Below are positions 1-6,075 of a stretch of 49,962 nt of DNA, in pieces; the first letter of the stretch is position 1, and each line of letters opens with the position of its first letter. Under the pieces are notes generated by a model. It was not told the DNA's origin. It ran no database searches and saw only the letters and a program-made list of their open reading frames with translations. The position numbers were made by a program, and so were the translations under genes. The DNA comes from a virus: IMG/VR virus record IMGVR_UViG_3300032245_000465, positions 1-49,962 of that record. One strand, 5' to 3'.

Positions 1-76
1 AAAGACTACCACCCGTGAGAGTCACCTCACTTCTCATCCTGCGGGTCACAGTATCCGCGAACAAAGCGGAACGTTC
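1..76. other. tRNA-cluster flank with hairpins, no gene seen
   Basis: No coding frame or complete tRNA is visible here. Read on the minus strand, it contains a stem TCCGC/GCGGA (54-58 with 66-70) just past the 3' end of the first tRNA. A second paired region has ACCCG/CGGGT arms around a GTGAG/CTCAC hairpin. It may be a processing or termination structure for the tRNA transcript, but there is no U-run. Confidence 0.3.
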
Positions 77-155
77 TGGTGCAGACCAGAGGACTCGAAC
101 CTCTGCGACAACCGGTGTTGGGCACCAATAGATGCCCGTCCTATCCATTATCTGC
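77..155 (-). tRNA. tRNA, provisional Trp(CCA), non-canonical anticodon loop
   Basis: A cloverleaf can be drawn on the minus strand: acceptor GCAGATA/GGTCTGC (last pair mismatched), a weak D-arm, T-arm AGAGG-TTCGAGT-CCTCT, discriminator A and an encoded CCA. The best anticodon arm is TTGGT-GCCCAAC-ACCGG, which puts CCA at 34-36 (Trp). Position 33 is then C rather than the near-universal U, and G32/C38 could pair and close the loop. The variable region is 7 nt. The identity is uncertain; a decayed or modified tRNA is possible. Confidence 0.6.
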
Positions 156-161
156 AAAACT

Positions 162-237
162 TGGCGCCCCGTAGGGGTTTCGATCCCCTTACCTCGACAG
201 TGACAGTGTCGCGCTCTCCCAATTGAGCTAACGGAGC
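162..237 (-). tRNA. tRNA-Asp(GUC)
   Basis: Complete 76-nt cloverleaf on the minus strand: acceptor GCTCCGT/ACGGGGC, anticodon arm CGACA-CTGTCAC-TGTCG giving anticodon GTC, T-arm AGGGG-ATCGAAA-CCCCT. The discriminator is G, as usual for Asp, and CCA is encoded. It follows tRNA-Glu in the same transcript. Confidence 0.93.
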
Positions 238-242
238 ATGAA

Positions 243-318
243 TGGTACACGGTACGGGAATCGAACCCGTCTTCCCAACGTGAAAGGCTGGTGTCCTAAA
301 CCGATAGACGAACCGTGC
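243..318 (-). tRNA. tRNA-Glu(UUC)
   Basis: Complete 76-nt cloverleaf on the minus strand: acceptor GCACGGT/ACCGTGT with a first G-U pair, D-arm GTCT/GGAC, anticodon arm CCAGC-CTTTCAC-GTTGG giving anticodon TTC, T-arm ACGGG-TTCGATT-CCCGT, discriminator A, encoded CCA. Confidence 0.93.
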
Positions 319-324
319 AAAAGA

Positions 325-410
325 TGGTGGATGCGGCTGGAGTTGAACCAGCAGTGCGCTAGGGCGGCGGATTTACAGTCCACTGGGGTTACCAATTTTC
401 CTACACATCC
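325..410 (-). tRNA. tRNA-Tyr(GUA)
   Basis: Class II tRNA of 86 nt on the minus strand. Acceptor is GGATGTG/CGCATCC and the anticodon arm GTGGA-CTGTAAA-TCCGC gives GTA. A long variable arm follows, as expected for bacterial tRNA-Tyr. Discriminator A and CCA are encoded. Confidence 0.93.
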
Positions 411-415
411 AGGGT

Positions 416-490
416 TGGTGGGTTGTGAGAGTTTCGAACTCCCGACATCCTCGGTGTAAACGAGGCGCTCTACCCCTGAGCTAACAACCC
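416..490 (-). tRNA. tRNA-Val(UAC)
   Basis: 75-nt cloverleaf on the minus strand: acceptor GGGTTGT/ACAACCC, D-arm GCTC/GAGC, anticodon arm CCTCG-TTTACAC-CGAGG giving TAC, T-arm GGGAG-TTCGAAA-CTCTC, discriminator A, encoded CCA. Confidence 0.94.
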
Positions 491-697
491 ATATTAAAAC
501 ATACTACAGGAACTCCACTTACCTCACAGGACCGTCTCCTGCTACTTCTGCTTTGTCATTACAGTTCAGCATACTCCACCGTGTCATATTTGGGTTTCCC
601 CTCAACTTTCATGTGCGTTGCACAGAGCCAGCCCGTCGGCTGGTTATCCTCAGTGCAAGCACCTAGCGGTGCTGACAACCTCTAATACATTTTAATA
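491..697 (-). other. Hairpin-rich spacer between tRNA-Val and tRNA-Leu
   Basis: This 207-nt gap has no convincing gene. On the minus strand it contains several GC-rich hairpins: AGCACC/GGTGCT, CCAGCC/GGCTGG inside a GCAC/GTGC pair, GTGC/GCAC, and CAGGA/TCCTG. A 17-codon frame with no Shine-Dalgarno site occurs inside it. It could be a folded non-coding RNA or a degenerate tRNA remnant. Only the hairpins are directly seen. Confidence 0.35.
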
Positions 698-782
698 TGG
701 TGCCCCAAAGGAGACTTGAACTCCTACGCCTCTCGGCACTGGCTTCTAAGACCAGCGTGTCTACCAATTCCACCATCGGGGC
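698..782 (-). tRNA. tRNA-Leu(UAG)
   Basis: Class II tRNA of 85 nt on the minus strand: acceptor GCCCCGA/TTGGGGC, anticodon arm CTGGT-CTTAGAA-GCCAG giving TAG, long variable arm, T-arm with GTTCAAG loop, discriminator A, encoded CCA. It is the first tRNA downstream of promoters P1 and P2. Confidence 0.94.
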
Positions 783-819
783 AATTTGTCACAACAGATT
801 GTTAATGAACTGTGTTCGT

Positions 820-837
820 CTGCAAACGATGTTGCAG
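820..837 (-). other. 5' stem-loop of the P1 transcript
   Basis: Hairpin CTGCAA-CATCGT-TTGCAG (minus strand) starts about 3 nt after the predicted P1 transcription start. Its loop matches the P2 hairpin loop in five of six positions, although the stem sequence differs. Confidence 0.5.
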
Positions 838-846
838 TGTTGGGTT

Positions 847-875
847 AGTATAACTGCATTTTACAATACTGTCAA
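847..875 (-). promoter_or_regulatory. Early sigma70-type promoter P1 (tRNA operon)
   Basis: Minus-strand TTGACA (870-875), 17-nt spacer, TATACT (847-852). It points at tRNA-Leu(UAG) and the following tRNAs. The sequence upstream of the -35 box is an imperfect copy of the one upstream of P2. Confidence 0.82.
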
Positions 876-919
876 ACTATTTTTCTGCGTTGTTGTAAAA
901 ACACAACTAGCACCCTTGT

Positions 920-939
920 TAGCAAAGCGATGTTTGCTA
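920..939 (-). other. 5' stem-loop of the P2 transcript
   Basis: Hairpin TAGCAAA-CATCGC-TTTGCTA on the minus strand begins a few nt after the predicted P2 start. Its position and loop sequence match the P1 hairpin. Confidence 0.5.
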
Positions 940-949
940 CAGTTTCACA

Positions 950-978
950 AGTATATGCGATCCTAGCGTTGCTGTCAA
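950..978 (-). promoter_or_regulatory. Early sigma70-type promoter P2 (tRNA operon)
   Basis: Minus-strand TTGACA (973-978), 17-nt spacer, TATACT (950-955). It lies ~100 nt upstream of P1 and shares its boxes, spacer length, upstream repeat and downstream hairpin. Confidence 0.82.
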
Positions 979-1029
979 CTGTTTTTTTCTGTTGTTGTAA
1001 AAATACTACACTGGTTGTTGACTATGCAA

Positions 1030-1200
1030 CACTTACCGATTCACAGTCTGTAAGTCATTTTCATCCAATGTAGGTAGTAAAATAGACTTTCCACTAAGTG
1101 GTATTGTTCGGTCCTTGGGACTAGCGACATGTTCAAAGTCTATTTTACTACAAACGGTTTTTACCATCGGCGTTTTCGCCACCGACTTCTCATCCCCGTT
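1030..1200 (-). other. Structured region with perfect 17-bp inverted repeat
   Basis: Positions 1074-1090 and 1135-1151 are perfect reverse complements (17/17). The 44-nt interval between them holds two smaller hairpins (CCAC/GTGG and GTCC/GGAC), so the RNA would fold as a branched structure on a long stem. Flanking hairpins are GGCG-TTTT-CGCC (1169-1180) and ACTTAC/GTAAGT (1032-1055). An 82-codon frame beginning with TTG inside the upstream terminator's U-run spans this, but it has no Shine-Dalgarno site and I do not trust it. A structured RNA or DNA cruciform site is more likely. Confidence 0.5.
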
Positions 1201-1274
1201 GCCGCCCTCATTATACCGGATGTTTATAGTGCCCGGAAGCTCGCGTTGCTCAGTACACTTTTCTAGAACCTTAG

Positions 1275-1309
1275 AAAACAAAAAACCCTAGGTGTTTTAA
1301 GCCTAGGGT
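1275..1309 (-). terminator. Rho-independent terminator of the P3 unit
   Basis: Minus-strand stem ACCCTAGG/CCTAGGGT (1285-1292 with 1302-1309), followed by TTTTTTGTTTT. It ends transcription coming from P3. Confidence 0.85.
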
Positions 1310-1337
1310 CCTGGAAGTTTGCAGTTGTTAATTTTGT

Positions 1338-1484
1338 TTAACTTTGCAGGTCTCCTGGACCCTGGGTACCCTCTAGTGGTGTGCGATCATTACTAATCTG
1401 TACGGTCGCAGACCACAAGGCCACTGGCATAAATGAATATGCTTGTGAGCAATGTTTGCGTCCGAGATTCAGTAGTGTTTGCAT
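1338..1484 (-). CDS. Small ORF (48 aa) in the P3 transcription unit
   Basis: The ATG at 1484 lies ~48 nt downstream of the P3 start and is preceded by a weak purine-rich AAAGAGAAAG. Translation begins MQTLLNLGRKHCSQAY and ends at TAA before the terminator. I recognise no family. It has a hydrophobic/aromatic middle (YSFMPVALW) but no clear membrane segment. The strong RNA structures across the frame make a non-coding role equally possible. Having its own promoter and terminator is what marks this frame as worth keeping. Confidence 0.4.
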   Translation of the reverse strand: MQTLLNLGRKHCSQAYSFMPVALWSATVQISNDRTPLEGTQGPGDLQS

Positions 1485-1510
1485 TTTGCTTTCTCTTTGT
1501 TTAAAAGTAC

Positions 1511-1529
1511 ACGTTACCCTATGTAACGT
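1511..1529 (-). other. 5' stem-loop of the P3 transcript
   Basis: Perfect 7-bp stem ACGTTAC/GTAACGT a few nt after the predicted P3 start. A similar stem, ACGTTAA/TTAACGT, occurs at 1819-1836 in the P4 leader, in the same flanking context (ATACGTTA...TAACGTGT). Confidence 0.5.
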
Positions 1530-1538
1530 ATGCTTGGA

Positions 1539-1567
1539 ATTATAATTTTATTTAGCCTTGCTGTCAA
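1539..1567 (-). promoter_or_regulatory. Early sigma70-type promoter P3 (full consensus)
   Basis: Minus-strand TTGACA (1562-1567), 17-nt spacer, TATAAT (1539-1544): a perfect match to the housekeeping-sigma consensus. A late-like GATAAATA lies slightly upstream (1591-1598). Confidence 0.88.
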
Positions 1568-1623
1568 GTACTTTTAACAGTTTTGGCAAAATATTTATCA
1601 TCTTGTTGCAATTTCAATAACTT

Positions 1624-1722
1624 TGGTGCCCTTGGCAGGACTCGAACCTGCACACTGTGGCTTATCTAGCCACTGCTTTGGCGAGGTATAAGCTCGCTTC
1701 TTTACCATTAAGCTACAAGGGC
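1624..1722 (-). tRNA. tRNA-Ile(UAU)-like, 99 nt, expanded variable region
   Basis: Acceptor GCCCTTG/CAAGGGC, T-arm GCAGG-TTCGAGT-CCTGC, discriminator A and encoded CCA are all good. Anticodon arm GCGAG-CTTATAC-CTCGC has U33, A37 and anticodon TAT (Ile, AUA codons). Between it and the T-arm lie 29 nt containing a second perfect arm, GTGGC-TAGATAA-GCCAC. That arm has the geometry of an anticodon arm followed by a 5-nt variable loop, with GAT (also Ile) at 34-36 but A at 33. tRNA-Ile is normally class I, so the extra arm is anomalous. The D-stem has one mismatch. Confidence 0.7.
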
Positions 1723-1725
1723 ATT

Positions 1726-1810
1726 TGGTGCGACTGACCGGACTCGAACCGGTACGCTGTGAAGCGAGAGATTTTAAGTCTCTTGTGTCTACCAATTTCA
1801 CCACAGTCGC
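1726..1810 (-). tRNA. tRNA-Leu(UAA)
   Basis: Class II tRNA of 85 nt on the minus strand: acceptor GCGACTG/CAGTCGC, anticodon arm AGAGA-CTTAAAA-TCTCT giving TAA, long variable arm, T-arm CCGG-TTCGAGT-CCGG, discriminator A, encoded CCA. It is transcribed from P4. Confidence 0.94.
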
Positions 1811-1818
1811 ATTAAGAC

Positions 1819-1836
1819 ACGTTAAAAAATTAACGT
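1819..1836 (-). other. Leader stem-loop upstream of tRNA-Leu(UAA)
   Basis: Perfect stem ACGTTAA/TTAACGT with a T4 loop in the P4 leader, shortly before the tRNA 5' end. It resembles the P3 5' hairpin in stem and flanks. Confidence 0.45.
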
Positions 1837-1880
1837 ATTCGTAATCGTATGCTGTGGAATGCCTTGTAGTTCATGTATGT

Positions 1881-1909
1881 ATAATAGCTTGAATTTTTAT
1901 TTATGTCAA
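1881..1909 (-). promoter_or_regulatory. Early promoter P4 overlapping a late motif and a stop codon
   Basis: Minus-strand TTGACA (1904-1909), 17-nt spacer, TATTAT (1881-1886). The -35 hexamer is also the last two codons (Leu-Thr) of the DUF2452 gene, whose TAA follows immediately. The spacer contains CATAAATA (1898-1905), a T4-type late promoter element. The tRNA pair downstream could therefore be transcribed early and late. Confidence 0.78.
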
Positions 1910-2386
1910 CCGCGATTCTTCTATCTCTAACCAAGTATGATCGCCCATGTACTTGACTTGTGTTTGGTACTCGTAGTCCTCTGGCGCACTACTTGACCAA
2001 TCGTTGGGACCAGTGTGTGTTAGCAACACATGTTGCTTTCGTTTGTCCCATACCAGCCAGTAGGCTTGTCCCATAACAGGACTAAACTGGTATACTGCGG
2101 CATGTACTGCATCTGTAACATCAAGACGCCTTTTGATTGACTGTGCTTGTTTTTCCAGTACTGCTACCAGTTCCATAATCCTATCATATTCCTGCTGGGC
2201 ATACATCCTAGCATGGTTGATCATTAGATCTTTTTGCTTGGTAACAGGTACCATTTCAAACTTAGGACCACCTGCTTCAGTGGCATAAGGTGTTACATTG
2301 CGATTGAAAAAGGGTATGAGGGAACCGCCTACATCTGCATCGTAGCTGTTTCTGCCTTTTGCTGTGTTAGACTTACGTTTTCCCAT
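1901..2386 (-). CDS. DUF2452-family conserved phage protein
   Basis: A 161-aa protein starting at the ATG that gives MGKRKSNTAKGRNSYDADVG. The frame extends five codons upstream, but that extension runs toward the tRNA. The C-terminal half (residues ~95-160) has the pattern FSPVMGQAYWLVWDKR ... PNDW ... GDHTWLEI, characteristic of the DUF2452 family common in T4-like cyanophages and some bacteria. Its function is unknown. A helical stretch around residues 55-90 (HARMYAQQEYDRIMELVAVL) looks coiled-coil-like. It lies between tRNA-Arg and tRNA-Leu, so it is probably transcribed with the tRNAs from P5. Its last codons form the -35 box of P4. Confidence 0.75.
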   Translation of the reverse strand: MGKRKSNTAKGRNSYDADVGGSLIPFFNRNVTPYATEAGGPKFEMVPVTKQKDLMINHARMYAQQEYDRIMELVAVLEKQAQSIKRRLDVTDAVHAAVYQFSPVMGQAYWLVWDKRKQHVLLTHTGPNDWSSSAPEDYEYQTQVKYMGDHTWLEIEESRLT

Positions 2387-2407
2387 GCAGTTACTTAGCA
2401 AGTTATT

Positions 2408-2482
2408 TGGTCCGGCGCACAGGAATCGAACCCGTATTCTAGAGGTAGAAGCTCTATGTATTATCCGTTATACGAACGCCAG
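2408..2482 (-). tRNA. tRNA-Arg(UCU)
   Basis: 75-nt cloverleaf on the minus strand: acceptor CTGGCGT/GCGCCGG, D-arm GTAT/ATAC, anticodon arm TAGAG-CTTCTAC-CTCTA giving TCT, T-arm ACGGG-TTCGATT-CCTGT, discriminator A, encoded CCA. Confidence 0.93.
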
Positions 2483-2487
2483 GTGTT

Positions 2488-2562
2488 TGGTGGGCTCACT
2501 GTGAATTGAACACAGACTCAATCGATTATGAGTCGACTGCTTTACCATTAAGCTATGAGCCC
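2488..2562 (-). tRNA. tRNA with CAU anticodon (Met or Ile2)
   Basis: 75-nt cloverleaf on the minus strand: acceptor GGGCTCA/TGAGCCC, anticodon arm GTCGA-CTCATAA-TCGAT giving CAT, T-arm CTGTG-TTCAATT-CACAG, discriminator A, encoded CCA. The G1-C72 pair argues against an initiator. It may be elongator Met, or Ile2 if C34 is modified to lysidine. The predicted P5 start is only ~2 nt before its 5' end. Confidence 0.9.
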
Positions 2563-2570
2563 GATTGTGT

Positions 2571-2599
2571 ATTGTATGTGAAAGTTAGTTAAGCGTCAA
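2571..2599 (-). promoter_or_regulatory. Early sigma70-type promoter P5
   Basis: Minus-strand TTGACG (2594-2599), 17-nt spacer, TACAAT (2571-2576), directly after the stop codon of the gene ending at 2603. It drives tRNA(CAU), tRNA-Arg and the DUF2452 gene. Confidence 0.72.
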
Positions 2600-2602
2600 C
2601 CG

Positions 2603-4096
2603 TTATCTTCGTTCTCTGCCCAAACCAGCACTAGAGGTTGTGCGTTTTGGTCTAGGTGAAGCTTCTGGTTGGTCAACGGGGGGTGCAACATTTACTTGAG
2701 TCAGTTCCTCAAGCATTGTGCCAGTTTCAAAGAAATTGCGTAGGTATCCACCCATGATTTGGGTACGGAACTGACACAGTAAATTACCAGTTTTTTTAAC
2801 TGGCACACCAGGTTTTGGTTTTACCATGATTTGAACAGTTCGGCCTTTTTCACGAGTGGTTGCTTTGACTTCTAGATCCAACAACTTCATCTTTTCATAG
2901 AGGTCGTCAGTGTAGTGCATGATCTTGTAGTTTCCTGATGCTAGACTGTCATCAAGTTTAACCACTTCAACATCTTCTAGTTTTTCGCCACGGGCAAAGA
3001 ACAATGCTGCCTGTGCAAAGTGTTTTACAATAGCTGACTCACGTGCCGGACTTTGCTTTTCTACTTGTAGTGTCAGCTTGGGTACTACCACGTCATCATA
3101 AATTTTGTAGATGTTTTGGTAGATCTGTTCGTTGCCCAGTGCTGGATCAAACAATCCTTTGTATTGAGCTATGTTTACTTCAAAGCAGGTCTTGAACCAG
3201 GTCTGCAATGATTCATATTTTGTGCCAGAAATCTGGCCCAGCGTATCAGAGCTTCGTGTTTTAAGACTTAGTAGTGCAACACTACGTCCATCAATGGACA
3301 GCTTCAAGTCTGCTTTGGTACCTTTGGCGTCACTGGTGCCATCACTGAGCACGTCAATCACGTTGTTGTTAGGATCGTTACGAACAATAGTACAGGCCTT
3401 GTTCACGCGATCTGATTCGTTGGCATACTTGACTGCGCCCGCAAACAATGCGGCGATGTCTGGAGCATACTGTTGATTGTTGTGCATTTGAATAAATGCT
3501 TGTGCGCTCATTGCTGGCACAACTGCACGAAATTGCAAGGTATCTGTCTTGGAGCCTTTTTCAGGATACTTAACAGCCCGAGTAATAGAAAACACCACGT
3601 TTTTATTTTCAATTGAACTAACCACGTGCCCTACCATAGCTTTGACTTGTTCAAAAGTAACTGGCATGCCAAGGTTAGCAAACTTAGCCGAAGTAGCCAG
3701 TCCCATCATCAATTCGTTAAGATGCCCTGCGTTGTATGCTTTACCTGGTTGTGTTTGCCCATTGGTAGTACGACCAGTAAATCGCCCATCTTTAAATAAT
3801 GTGCCAAGAGAAACGGACTGTGGTTGATCGTGTAGATCACTGATGATTGTGATTTTAGGGGGCAGTGTGTAAGGCTGTCCTGCCTGCATGTTTTGTAGTG
3901 CAGTGGCCAGTTGCTGTGCAGACTCTGGAGAAATTTTTACTTTTTCCCCATAGGTCTCACGTTTAGCTGGCGTAATTTCTAAAGGTTGTCCTTTATTGAT
4001 CAAATCTACCAAGGTAGCCAAGTATGCACCACCGTGCTTTTTTAGCTCGGCTGCTGTTAGGTCTGTTTCAGTGATAATGTTAATAAGTTCGCGCAT
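2603..4096 (-). CDS. PD-(D/E)XK nuclease-like phage protein
   Basis: A 497-aa protein from the ATG at 4096 (MRELINIITETDLTAAELKK). An in-frame TTG six codons upstream is less likely. Residues ~260-281 read KADLKLSIDG then VALLSLKTR: a strand ending in Asp263, a turn, then Ser277-Leu-Lys279. This resembles the D-(X)n-(E/S)xK core of PD-(D/E)XK nucleases, with Ser where Glu is usual. The following SGTKYESLQTWF segment is also typical of such folds. The C-terminus is Pro/Arg-rich and likely disordered. The N-terminal ~25 residues resemble those of other phage proteins with a helical LTAAELKKHGG signature. It ends the uvsX-uvsY operon. The function is inferred from one motif only. Confidence 0.5.
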   Translation of the reverse strand: MRELINIITETDLTAAELKKHGGAYLATLVDLINKGQPLEITPAKRETYGEKVKISPESAQQLATALQNMQAGQPYTLPPKITIISDLHDQPQSVSLGTLFKDGRFTGRTTNGQTQPGKAYNAGHLNELMMGLATSAKFANLGMPVTFEQVKAMVGHVVSSIENKNVVFSITRAVKYPEKGSKTDTLQFRAVVPAMSAQAFIQMHNNQQYAPDIAALFAGAVKYANESDRVNKACTIVRNDPNNNVIDVLSDGTSDAKGTKADLKLSIDGRSVALLSLKTRSSDTLGQISGTKYESLQTWFKTCFEVNIAQYKGLFDPALGNEQIYQNIYKIYDDVVVPKLTLQVEKQSPARESAIVKHFAQAALFFARGEKLEDVEVVKLDDSLASGNYKIMHYTDDLYEKMKLLDLEVKATTREKGRTVQIMVKPKPGVPVKKTGNLLCQFRTQIMGGYLRNFFETGTMLEELTQVNVAPPVDQPEASPRPKRTTSSAGLGRERR

Positions 4097-4099
4097 CCA

Positions 4100-4107
4100 G
4101 TATTTAG
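4100..4107 (-). promoter_or_regulatory. Late promoter motif CTAAATAC
   Basis: T4-type late element between the methyltransferase and the nuclease-like gene. Its TAA is the methyltransferase stop codon. It ends only 3 nt before the downstream ATG, so a transcript from it would be almost leaderless. Confidence 0.5.
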
Positions 4108-4889
4108 TCTTCAACTAAATGCCAGTCCCTGTCCAGCCAAACATAATAGATATCTTCTTGACGCATGTAGCCGTATTTGTTTAGACTGTTGATCATGCTG
4201 TCGTTTATTAACTGTTTGTCAGCTAGATCATACCAGGATGTTTTGGTAGGATCCATTGGCGGAATATTGCTTTTGTACACGCAGGCGTGCAACCACGGAT
4301 CATCTTTATTCTTTAAGAAATACGCATCACGACAGTCAAATCCATTCACGGCCAGCATGTATACCAAACTGATAAAATTGTGATTGAAGTAGCTGTAGTT
4401 GGTACTACGACTTATTAAACGATTGTACACATAGTTGCTCTGCATAGGAAAGCATACTGCCAACATACCATTGACATTCATCTGCTCATTCCACAATTTC
4501 AATGTGTTCAGCGGATTCACTGCATATTGAAAACTGTTATGGCTCCAGATAAAATCTACTTCTCTACTCAGTACACGTTGCTTTTCAAAGTCGCCGTTGA
4601 TTATTTTAACACTAGCAGGCAGCATCTCAGGTTCAATTTGAGAAACGTTTTGATCCACTGCATAACATTTTAAATTACGTGGGCGTGATATTCTTTCAAT
4701 GCGTCCATCGTCGTGTTCTATTTCATCTATTGTTTCTAATCGAGCCCACCAATTGATATCCATGCCCGACCCACAACCCATATCAGCCACTGTTTCCAAG
4801 CTATCCAAATAGTCTGAGAACTGTGCAATACGTTCCAGCGTGTGCAAAGCATGTTGGTGACTTTGATGAGCGTTATTAAATTGATCCAT
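4104..4889 (-). CDS. SAM-dependent class I methyltransferase
   Basis: A 261-aa protein. Residues 36-42 are DMGCGSG, the glycine-rich SAM-binding motif I. AVDQN near residue 75 fits the acidic motif II region, and DFIWSHNSFQYA near 115 fits post-motif III/IV of small-molecule or protein methyltransferases. There is no DPPY/NPPY DNA adenine motif and no PC cytosine motif, so a DNA base is not the obvious substrate. The start overlaps the preceding 84-aa gene by 14 nt, which implies translational coupling. Its place after uvsY is not enough to assign a target. Confidence 0.72.
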   Translation of the reverse strand: MDQFNNAHQSHQHALHTLERIAQFSDYLDSLETVADMGCGSGMDINWWARLETIDEIEHDDGRIERISRPRNLKCYAVDQNVSQIEPEMLPASVKIINGDFEKQRVLSREVDFIWSHNSFQYAVNPLNTLKLWNEQMNVNGMLAVCFPMQSNYVYNRLISRSTNYSYFNHNFISLVYMLAVNGFDCRDAYFLKNKDDPWLHACVYKSNIPPMDPTKTSWYDLADKQLINDSMINSLNKYGYMRQEDIYYVWLDRDWHLVED

Positions 4890-5130
4890 TTTTCAGTATC
4901 TCTATTACGACCTGGTCTTTAAGGTCTCTAAGTCTGGGCTCAAGCTGATGGCATGCTTCGGCTATTTCTACATCGCTGCCCCAGGCTCGCTGTGTCATCA
5001 AGTGGTTGGCCCATTTTCCCACAGAGTCTTTTAAAATTTGTATGTCCACAGCATTGTGTTTAGGACGAGCACGGCAACATAGATTGTATTCTTCTATCAG
5101 TGCATCGGCATGCTCTTTCCAGTTGATCAT
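4876..5130 (-). CDS. Hypothetical small protein (84 aa)
   Basis: MINWKEHADALIEEYNLCCR starts at an ATG sharing ATGA with the uvsY stop. It is a predicted all-helical, mixed-charge protein with a Cys-Cys pair near residue 18 and no recognisable domain. It is tightly packed between uvsY and the methyltransferase, so it is co-expressed with the recombination genes. I do not recognise a family. Confidence 0.65.
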   Translation of the reverse strand: MINWKEHADALIEEYNLCCRARPKHNAVDIQILKDSVGKWANHLMTQRAWGSDVEIAEACHQLEPRLRDLKDQVVIEILKNGSI

Positions 5131-5579
5131 ACTGTAACATCCTCCATGCCCGCTGTGCGTAGTCGTACCACATGCCCTAGCATGAAATTTTTACTTTCAA
5201 GGCCCTTCATGATACCTAGCCAACGGTTGCGTAGCAGTGCCACCTCATTGATAATTGTTTCCATATCAATGACCTCATCCTCACCGTCCACATACTTTTC
5301 AGCATCACGACTGGTAAGGGCTCGGGCATAGGTTTCTAGGTACTTCTGAAAATGCTTTCGACGTATTTTACGTAGTTGTATGTTGAGAAACTCTAGTACT
5401 GCTTCAATTTCCTGTAACTGATTAAAACGATGTTCAGTTAATCCTGGCAGTCCACTCAGTTGCTTTTCAACCAACCCTTGTATTTTAACGTCTCGTTTGG
5501 CTTCGTCTAACTGTGCTTCATAGTACTCAATGAAGTCAGGTATGTTAGCCAAACTTGCTACGATACGATTATACCACAT
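5127..5579 (-). CDS. uvsY: UvsY-like recombination mediator
   Basis: A 150-aa protein, close to the 137 aa of T4 UvsY. The central segment RKIRRKHFQKYLE followed by RALTSRDAEKYVDGE and the downstream ALLRNRWLGIMKGLESK match the conserved core of UvsY in T4-like cyanophages. UvsY loads the UvsX recombinase onto ssDNA coated with gp32, and both partners are encoded just upstream in the same operon. It is highly charged and helical, as expected for a protein that oligomerises on ssDNA. The gene begins 5 nt after the previous stop and ends in an ATGA overlap with the next gene. Confidence 0.85.
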   Translation of the reverse strand: MWYNRIVASLANIPDFIEYYEAQLDEAKRDVKIQGLVEKQLSGLPGLTEHRFNQLQEIEAVLEFLNIQLRKIRRKHFQKYLETYARALTSRDAEKYVDGEDEVIDMETIINEVALLRNRWLGIMKGLESKNFMLGHVVRLRTAGMEDVTV

Positions 5580-5584
5580 GGCTA

Positions 5585-5830
5585 TTACTCATCGTAGTCG
5601 TAGTCGTTTTCCTCATCAGCAAGGTCGTCGCCATCAACGTCTAAATATTCTTTGCTGGCTCGTTTCAAGTAAGAGTCTGTAGCCGATAGAATTTTAAGAT
5701 CCTGATCATTCACACCACTGTCTACTAAAATACTCATAACGTGGTCTGCCGCGGCTTGCCGATCTTTAGGTGAAACGTACTCTTTCATGATTGTATAAGT
5801 TTCAACCAGTGCATTTACTTCGATTGTCAT
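5585..5830 (-). CDS. Small acidic conserved phage protein (81 aa)
   Basis: Starts MTIEVNALVETYTIMKEYV with ATGA overlap to the upstream gene. A helical N-terminal region (residues 1-60, containing PKDRQAAADHV) is followed by a strongly acidic tail of Asp, Glu and Tyr. Small acidic proteins between uvsX and uvsY are common in cyanophage-like genomes, but I cannot assign a function. The tail could bind a basic partner such as a DNA-binding protein; that is inference. Confidence 0.7.
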   Translation of the reverse strand: MTIEVNALVETYTIMKEYVSPKDRQAAADHVMSILVDSGVNDQDLKILSATDSYLKRASKEYLDVDGDDLADEENDYDYDE

Positions 5831-6075
5831 TCGTCATCTTCCTCATCATCTGTTATAGGGTCTTCAGCATGATTGAAAACTTCGTTAACCAGTTCTTGAG
5901 TGGTCCACCCCATCCAATGCAAGTGATGGATACACCCGATGAACAGACTGTACATAGTAGTTGCTGGATCGTAGTTTTCCTCTTCTCGTGTGAAGATTCC
6001 TTCAATGATCAGATTAGCAATGTCAGTGCTATGGTTAATTTCATCATCTGTTAACTCAACTGGTTCGTCATTCAT
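5827..6075 (-). CDS. Small acidic hypothetical protein (82 aa)
   Basis: Starts MNDEPVELTDDEINHSTDIA and overlaps the uvsX stop by ATGA. It has acidic ends (the last residues are nearly all Asp/Glu) and a more hydrophobic, His/Trp-rich centre (IGCIHHLHWMGW). No domain is recognised. Coupling to uvsX suggests a recombination/replication accessory role. Confidence 0.65.
   Translation of the reverse strand: MNDEPVELTDDEINHSTDIANLIIEGIFTREEENYDPATTMYSLFIGCIHHLHWMGWTTQELVNEVFNHAEDPITDDEEDDE

Follow-up and report, generated by a model that had tools for sequence, protein, structure and literature searches.

The window analysed here is an entire viral contig from IMG/VR, 49,962 bases long (record IMGVR_UViG_3300032245_000465), whose terminase is closest (53%) to those of PA5oct-like jumbo phages. 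On its minus strand, between positions 1567 and 1280, lies a compact leader unit: a promoter, a short open reading frame (ORF) and a set of hairpins that end in an intrinsic terminator, upstream of a conserved RNA and a transfer RNA (tRNA) gene. Its elements are as follows (nt, nucleotides; bp, base pairs).

1539-1567, minus strand: sigma70-type promoter, TTGACA-17-TATAAT (TTGACA 1567-1562, TATAAT 1544-1539)
1509-1531, minus strand: 5' hairpin P1, 9 bp in the predicted fold (1531-1523/1517-1509)
1338-1484, minus strand: leader ORF of 48 codons, MQTLLNLGRKHCSQAYSFMPVALWSATVQISNDRTPLEGTQGPGDLQS and a stop, from the reading of the frame and its conservation
1427-1442, minus strand: small hairpin within the ORF, GCATA/TATGC, replaced in relatives by, for example, TAGGC/GCCTA or TGTGGC/GCCACA
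1376-1416, minus strand: hairpin P2 within the ORF, GTGGT.C.TGCGA/TCGCA.C.ACCAC (arms 1416-1406/1386-1376), with GGUGUGC/GUACACC in L044
1386-1394, minus strand: candidate control codons, the RRU run AGT AAT GAT (codons 31-33)
1357-1362, minus strand: 5' arm of the antiterminator, with GGGTCC as its outer helix and an inner part at 1356-1352
1338-1340, minus strand: stop codon TAA, 17-22 nt past the outer antiterminator arm
1306-1311, minus strand: antiterminator 3' arm GGACCC, whose CCC (1308-1306) is common to the terminator
1280-1308, minus strand: intrinsic terminator CCCTAGG-9 nt-CCTAGGG-TTTTTT (1308-1302/1292-1286/1285-1280), a 7-bp stem and six T

Much of this layout had been proposed in an initial annotation, and a re-reading of the coordinates bears it out. 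The promoter lies at 1567-1539, where it is the sole 12/12 match to TTGACA-17-TATAAT across window positions 1-6000, with a predicted transcription start near 1532; the terminator is there, a 7-bp stem with six T at 1308-1280; the 48-codon frame is present at 1484-1338; the 11-position stem is exactly 1416-1406/1386-1376; and a tRNA scan agrees that the unit of about 250 nt contains no tRNA. Two details need amendment. The 5' hairpin exists, with 9 bp in the fold (1531-1523/1517-1509) rather than the 7 bp first described, and a GGTC/GACC hairpin is able to form, but its GGTCC has a more stable partner in GGACC at 1311-1307. A consensus terminator scanner with a loop limit of 8 skipped the window terminator because of its 9-nt loop. 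The 255-nt leader RNA as a whole has a fold that beats 200 of 200 dinucleotide shuffles (z score -4.5). Among the Rfam covariance models, tRNAs were the sole matches at the gathering threshold, and the others found at permissive thresholds were at chance level (for example freshwater-2, 19.6 bits against a cut-off of 49.9). The leader peptide gave nothing over a curated cut-off in Pfam or PHROGs.

Relatives of this leader are to be found in other phage contigs of IMG/VR, where we collected 59 distinct leaders, that of the window included. Searching with the 48-amino-acid frame brought 4 other viral contigs, an alignment of the frame 11, and an 18-mer of the leader core 13. A profile scan with nhmmer of the neighbours of UvsX added the distant leaders L041, L044, L093, L074, L072, L035 and L049, and L114, L117 and L120 were reached through a small basic protein encoded behind some of the distant leaders. 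Identity within the 16-member core set is 46-89%, the lowest value to the window being 46%. The contigs of the close relatives sit within or beside tRNA genes, except for a few short contigs. The leader core has no match in host genomes; named phages gave no DNA match worth mention outside their tRNAs, nor did the tRNA region of a PA5oct-like phage or the first 50 kilobases (kb) of XacN1 give one. The 503-amino-acid protein encoded next to the unit has no relatives in IMG/VR.

In DNA alignments of the close relatives the promoter, the start codon, the P2 core, GGGTCC, the stop codon, GGACCC and the terminator are all kept. The distant leaders share the same plan: a promoter spacing of exactly 17, 39-48 leader codons, and a terminator, the first bases of which also form part of the 3' arm of a hairpin. 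The spacer is likewise exactly 17 in all 20 core relatives. Since all of the leader elements recur in relatives, they are not due to chance. The initial annotation had raised the prospect of relatives that lack both the stems and the frame; both are present in relatives. Its description of an early transcription unit is sustained as well: this is a real early-type sigma70 unit, and both its RNA structure and its frame are under selection.

Conservation of the frame indicates that the leader ORF is translated. It is open in 16 of 16 core leaders, without a single stop, whereas the two remaining forward frames contain 52 and 78, and insertions and deletions between the start codon and the core are multiples of three. 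The tail is more peculiar: the DNA GGGTCCAGGAG is read G-P-G in some relatives and V-Q-E in others, and a second, compensating frameshift brings every tail frame back to the identical TAA. A tail read in two frames, but with a fixed TAA, implies that what is needed is an open frame to a fixed stop, the tail residues being irrelevant. In 10 of the 20 core leaders (L023, L041, L044, L093, L074, L072, L049, L114, L117 and L120) the AUG lies only 6-11 nt after the -10 box, and their messenger RNAs (mRNAs) would be leaderless or nearly so. P1 is missing in these relatives; in L002, L003, L014 and L022 its position is occupied by other sequences that are still self-complementary. The 22-nt core AGATTAGTAATGATCGCACACC is nearly invariant in the closer relatives and lost in the distant L044, L093 and L072. 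We had considered this core as an RNA target site, an idea abandoned because other sequences stand in its place in the distant relatives and the parts of it that pair are those of P2; an apparent triple stop TAG-TAA-TGA in the core was also dropped, being unconserved in distant relatives.

At the 3' end of the leader two hairpins are mutually exclusive, the 3' arm of the long GGGUCC/GGACCC hairpin (the antiterminator) overlapping the 5' arm of the terminator. When 16 representative leaders were folded up to the terminator 5' arm, this arm was in all 16 buried in a hairpin with a free energy of about -18 to -30 kcal/mol. Among 200 shuffles per leader, 0-6 were paired in this way and as stable (z -1.8 to -6.4), and the stability exceeded the shuffle mean in every one of the 16. 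Across the 59 leaders the antiterminator pairs have changed on both sides at many positions: at offset -2 there are 40 CG and 12 UA pairs, at offset -3 36 CG, 12 UA, 3 UG and 1 GU, and at offset -7 19 AU, 17 GC and 15 UA. In some distant leaders the sequence is wholly replaced with the pairing kept, as in L093 (GGGUCCUUAAA/UUUAAGGACCC), L072 (GGGUUUAAGUUAA/UUAACUUAAACCC), L074 (GGUCUUAGUU/AACUAAGGCC) and L049 (GGGGUUCU/AGAACCCC plus AAUCUUA/UGAGAUU). The terminator stem, with CCC shared, covaries separately (CCCTGG/CCAGGG, CCTCGG/CCGAGG, CCCCGGA/TCCGGGG). As a control, a fixed antiterminator criterion recognised 46 of 54 leaders as against 5 of 46 other terminators on the same contigs. The stop codon falls inside the antiterminator 5' arm or up to about 30 nt past it across the leaders. 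These comparisons establish, at the level of sequence, the alternative pairings and the position of the stop, besides the frame and the linkage to unit B, a structured RNA described below.

The effect of a ribosome was modelled in equilibrium folding with its footprint, -15 to +12 relative to the stop codon, masked, the L044 terminator being left out. With no ribosome on the window RNA, the predicted probability is 0.97 for the antiterminator and 0.15 for the terminator; with the stop codon masked, these become 0.02 and 0.98, respectively; and with the ribosome on the AGU-AAU-GAU run the antiterminator remains at 0.97. Masking the stop codon favoured the terminator over the antiterminator in 12 of 16 leaders. 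A run of at least two RRU codons is present in 47 of the 59 leaders, in the orders AGU AAU GAU, AAU AGU GAU and AAU GAU AGU. In the core set its usual place is 12-32 nt before the antiterminator arm, and in most sequences it is far enough upstream that a stalled ribosome would leave this arm free.

Downstream of the terminator, and between it and unit B in some relatives, are these features.

1065-1253, minus strand: unit B, a conserved structured RNA identified by comparison, the presumed regulated product
698-782, minus strand: tRNA-Leu(UAG), the next gene downstream, with promoters of its own at 978-950 and 875-847
17328-17477 in L049, 14962-15102 in L072, 18807-18971 in L041 and 4634-4795 in L023, minus strand: genes for basic proteins of 46-54 amino acids

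Unit B is some 190-300 nt long and has no Rfam match; in 10 sequences, 22 of its 43 pairs are compensatory, with changes on both sides. It lies directly 3' of the terminator in every relative whose flank is long enough, except that in some a gene for the small basic protein (LTPEQRxALLEAKLKRAE) intervenes (L023, L041, L074, L072, L049, L114, L117 and L120). The members of this protein family that were searched have no convincing match in Pfam or PHROGs, and named phages gave no match for the protein. The linkage of leader and unit B also emerges when the search is begun from the other end. A pattern for unit B alone (GGGCGGACAGGAYACATG) matched 63 viral contigs of up to 354 kb, 62 of which were listed as new loci (L121-L182), a few overlapping known contigs. 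In 54 of the 62 a terminator precedes the match, at a distance of about 78-150 or 215-297 nt. The antiterminator pairing is present in all 54, and a leader ORF ends at the terminator in nearly all; the other loci are too close to the contig edge or their terminator was undetected. Nine matches to the pattern in bacterial genomes of GTDB lack a corresponding terminator or leader a short way upstream and seem fortuitous. At 57 unit-B loci the contig extends for 500 nt or more downstream, and 49 of these loci have a tRNA on the same strand within 700 nt. Unit B leads directly into tRNA-Ser(UGA) in L041 and L114, and in L041, L114, L117 and L093 the stretch from the terminator to the next tRNA is free of promoter-like sites.

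Other RNA features of the neighbourhood deserve mention. ARAGORN calls a tRNA-Glu(CTC) at 1624-1722 (minus strand), yet the loop on the anticodon stem GCGAG/CTCGC is CTTATAC, which makes the anticodon UAU; the molecule has a long variable arm of 6 bp, and such a class-II-like form is unusual for a tRNA whose anticodon is UAU. Its counterparts in L002, L005 and L093 are called tRNA-Ile(TAT), of 90-92 nt. After tRNA-Leu(UAG), at about 500-690 (minus strand), is a second long conserved non-coding stretch, possibly a structured RNA, which is very similar in L003 and L005 (GGTGCTTGCACTGAGGATAACCAG...GTTGAGGGGAAACCC). Finally, a tRNA-like cloverleaf with a T arm and a CCA end, unreported by ARAGORN and Rfam, is visible at about 79-157 (minus strand).

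The trp, his, thr and ilv leaders are ribosome-mediated transcription attenuators of amino-acid operons. The arrangement described above resembles these, and the bmrCD leader (PMC4191407), in its strong promoter, short leader ORF and antiterminator and terminator with a common arm, in a stop placed where a ribosome would break the antiterminator, and, in most leaders, in a candidate run of similar codons upstream. It differs from them in being phage-borne and in having downstream a structured RNA and tRNAs (with the small basic protein in some) rather than biosynthetic or resistance genes. It differs also in its codons, AGU, AAU and GAU rather than those of one amino acid, in the apparently leaderless state of half of the core leaders, and in having no consistent 1:2 helix. 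From the sequence comparisons and the folding model, the unit is very probably a ribosome-mediated transcription attenuator of trp/his-leader build that heads phage tRNA arrays. The host RNA polymerase would start near 1532, and a ribosome would translate the 48-codon leader behind it. On reaching the stop (1340-1338), this ribosome would disrupt the 5' half of the antiterminator and free the CCC for the terminator (1308-1280), so that transcription would end after about 250 nt. Were the ribosome slow, stalled upstream (the AGU-AAU-GAU run being the best candidate site) or absent, the GGGUCC/GGACCC antiterminator would form first and block the terminator, and the polymerase would continue into unit B (1253-1065) and probably also into the following tRNA genes. 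This direction of control, and the readthrough product as the functional output, are what we infer from the anatomy.

Several points weigh against such an attenuator. The switch is not reproduced thermodynamically in all leaders, since at equilibrium L003, L022 and L023 keep an antiterminator probability of 0.6-1.0 despite the stop-codon mask and five of 16 (L002, L015, L049, L114 and L120) already prefer the terminator when no ribosome is present. The shared CCC pairs are nearly invariant, so that no covariation support comes from them. A trp-like 1:2 protector helix was not consistently predicted in the leaders; RNAalifold suggests a pairing of this type, GGCCU/AGGGUC, on which the single-sequence folds are inconsistent. 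The RRU run is absent from 12 of the 59 leaders, a distant subset, and therefore cannot be the whole signal. For leaders from the unit-B search, the search itself required an open frame of 30 codons or more, and the frame statistics rest on the 16 core leaders. Lastly, as the window's tRNA-Leu has two promoters of its own, attenuation cannot be its sole control.

The initial annotation saw a self-contained unit that might be a small RNA, a toxin-like mRNA or both. Self-contained it is not, for the terminator looks conditional and a conserved RNA lies 3' of it. A trans-acting phage small RNA, possibly with a dual function through its peptide, in which the terminated RNA of about 250 nt would target host or phage mRNAs and readthrough would be incidental, could account for the strong promoter and terminator, the stable fold (z -4.5) and the near invariance of AGATTAGTAATGATCGCACACC in the closer relatives. 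We consider it improbable: that core is lost in L044, L093 and L072, and the features retained throughout are a pairing that competes with the terminator, the place of the stop codon and, downstream, unit B, which follows the terminator wherever the flank of the relatives is readable. To regard the leader as an early toxin or host-takeover micropeptide, on an mRNA with an ordinary terminator, is more doubtful still; the frame does have a start and, in some cases, a site resembling a Shine-Dalgarno sequence, but two different frames serve for the peptide tail although the RNA and the stop position are retained, the peptide matches no Pfam or PHROGs family, the peptides differ widely among relatives and their conserved residues coincide with hairpin arms. 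The shifting tail frame, the competition with the terminator and the structured RNA downstream, all marks of a cis-acting attenuator leader, leave a free-standing small RNA or a toxin mRNA unsupported.

Perhaps, instead, the in-frame hairpins bind a ligand or a protein that sets the balance of antiterminator and terminator, in the manner of a riboswitch, translation being secondary. P2 and the preceding hairpin are conserved through changing sequence, and the residues they encode seem dictated by the pairing. Against this stand the frame that is open in all aligned relatives, its frame-preserving insertions and deletions and the compensated shifts to the same stop, and an AUG 6-11 nt past the -10 box in 10 of 20 core leaders befits a leader meant to be translated; we judge this explanation about as improbable as a small RNA. 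A ribosome-mediated attenuator is the reading we retain.

As for its presumed product, unit B appears from sequence comparison to be a previously undescribed structured RNA, carried by dozens of large phage contigs. GOLLD and ROOL are ornate non-coding structured RNAs of phages and bacteria (PMC12286853), which unit B resembles in being structured and non-coding and from which it differs in its size of about 190-300 nt, its place behind an attenuator and its lack of an Rfam match; the GOLLD and ROOL models gave nothing at E<=10 in window positions 500-2000. A role in processive antitermination, or one related to tRNAs, is a possible candidate function.

Two papers report that phage tRNAs are able to counter tRNA-cleaving defences (PMC10264068, PMC11555353). 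The present attenuator is similar to the extent that it heads tRNA arrays and, by its anatomy, reads translation, and in the light of those reports a translation-sensing switch at the head of a tRNA array is plausible. One could imagine a widespread, phage-encoded sensor of translation status: depletion of the tRNAs that read the leader, or blocked translation (for example by a host anticodon nuclease), would cause antitermination in the leader and turn on unit B together with the small protein and the array of tRNAs, as a circuit of counter-defence or of tRNA resupply. We offer this only tentatively, the link to defence being conjecture. Searches of an open-access library yielded no phage-encoded leader-peptide attenuator or regulated phage tRNA array. 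The leader bears on the question of what big tRNA arrays are for in large phages and how they are controlled. An attenuator that ties transcription at the head of the array to a translating ribosome would let the supply of tRNAs and RNA respond to the translational state of the host, and the leader and unit B provide two sequence families that can be searched for in other phages.
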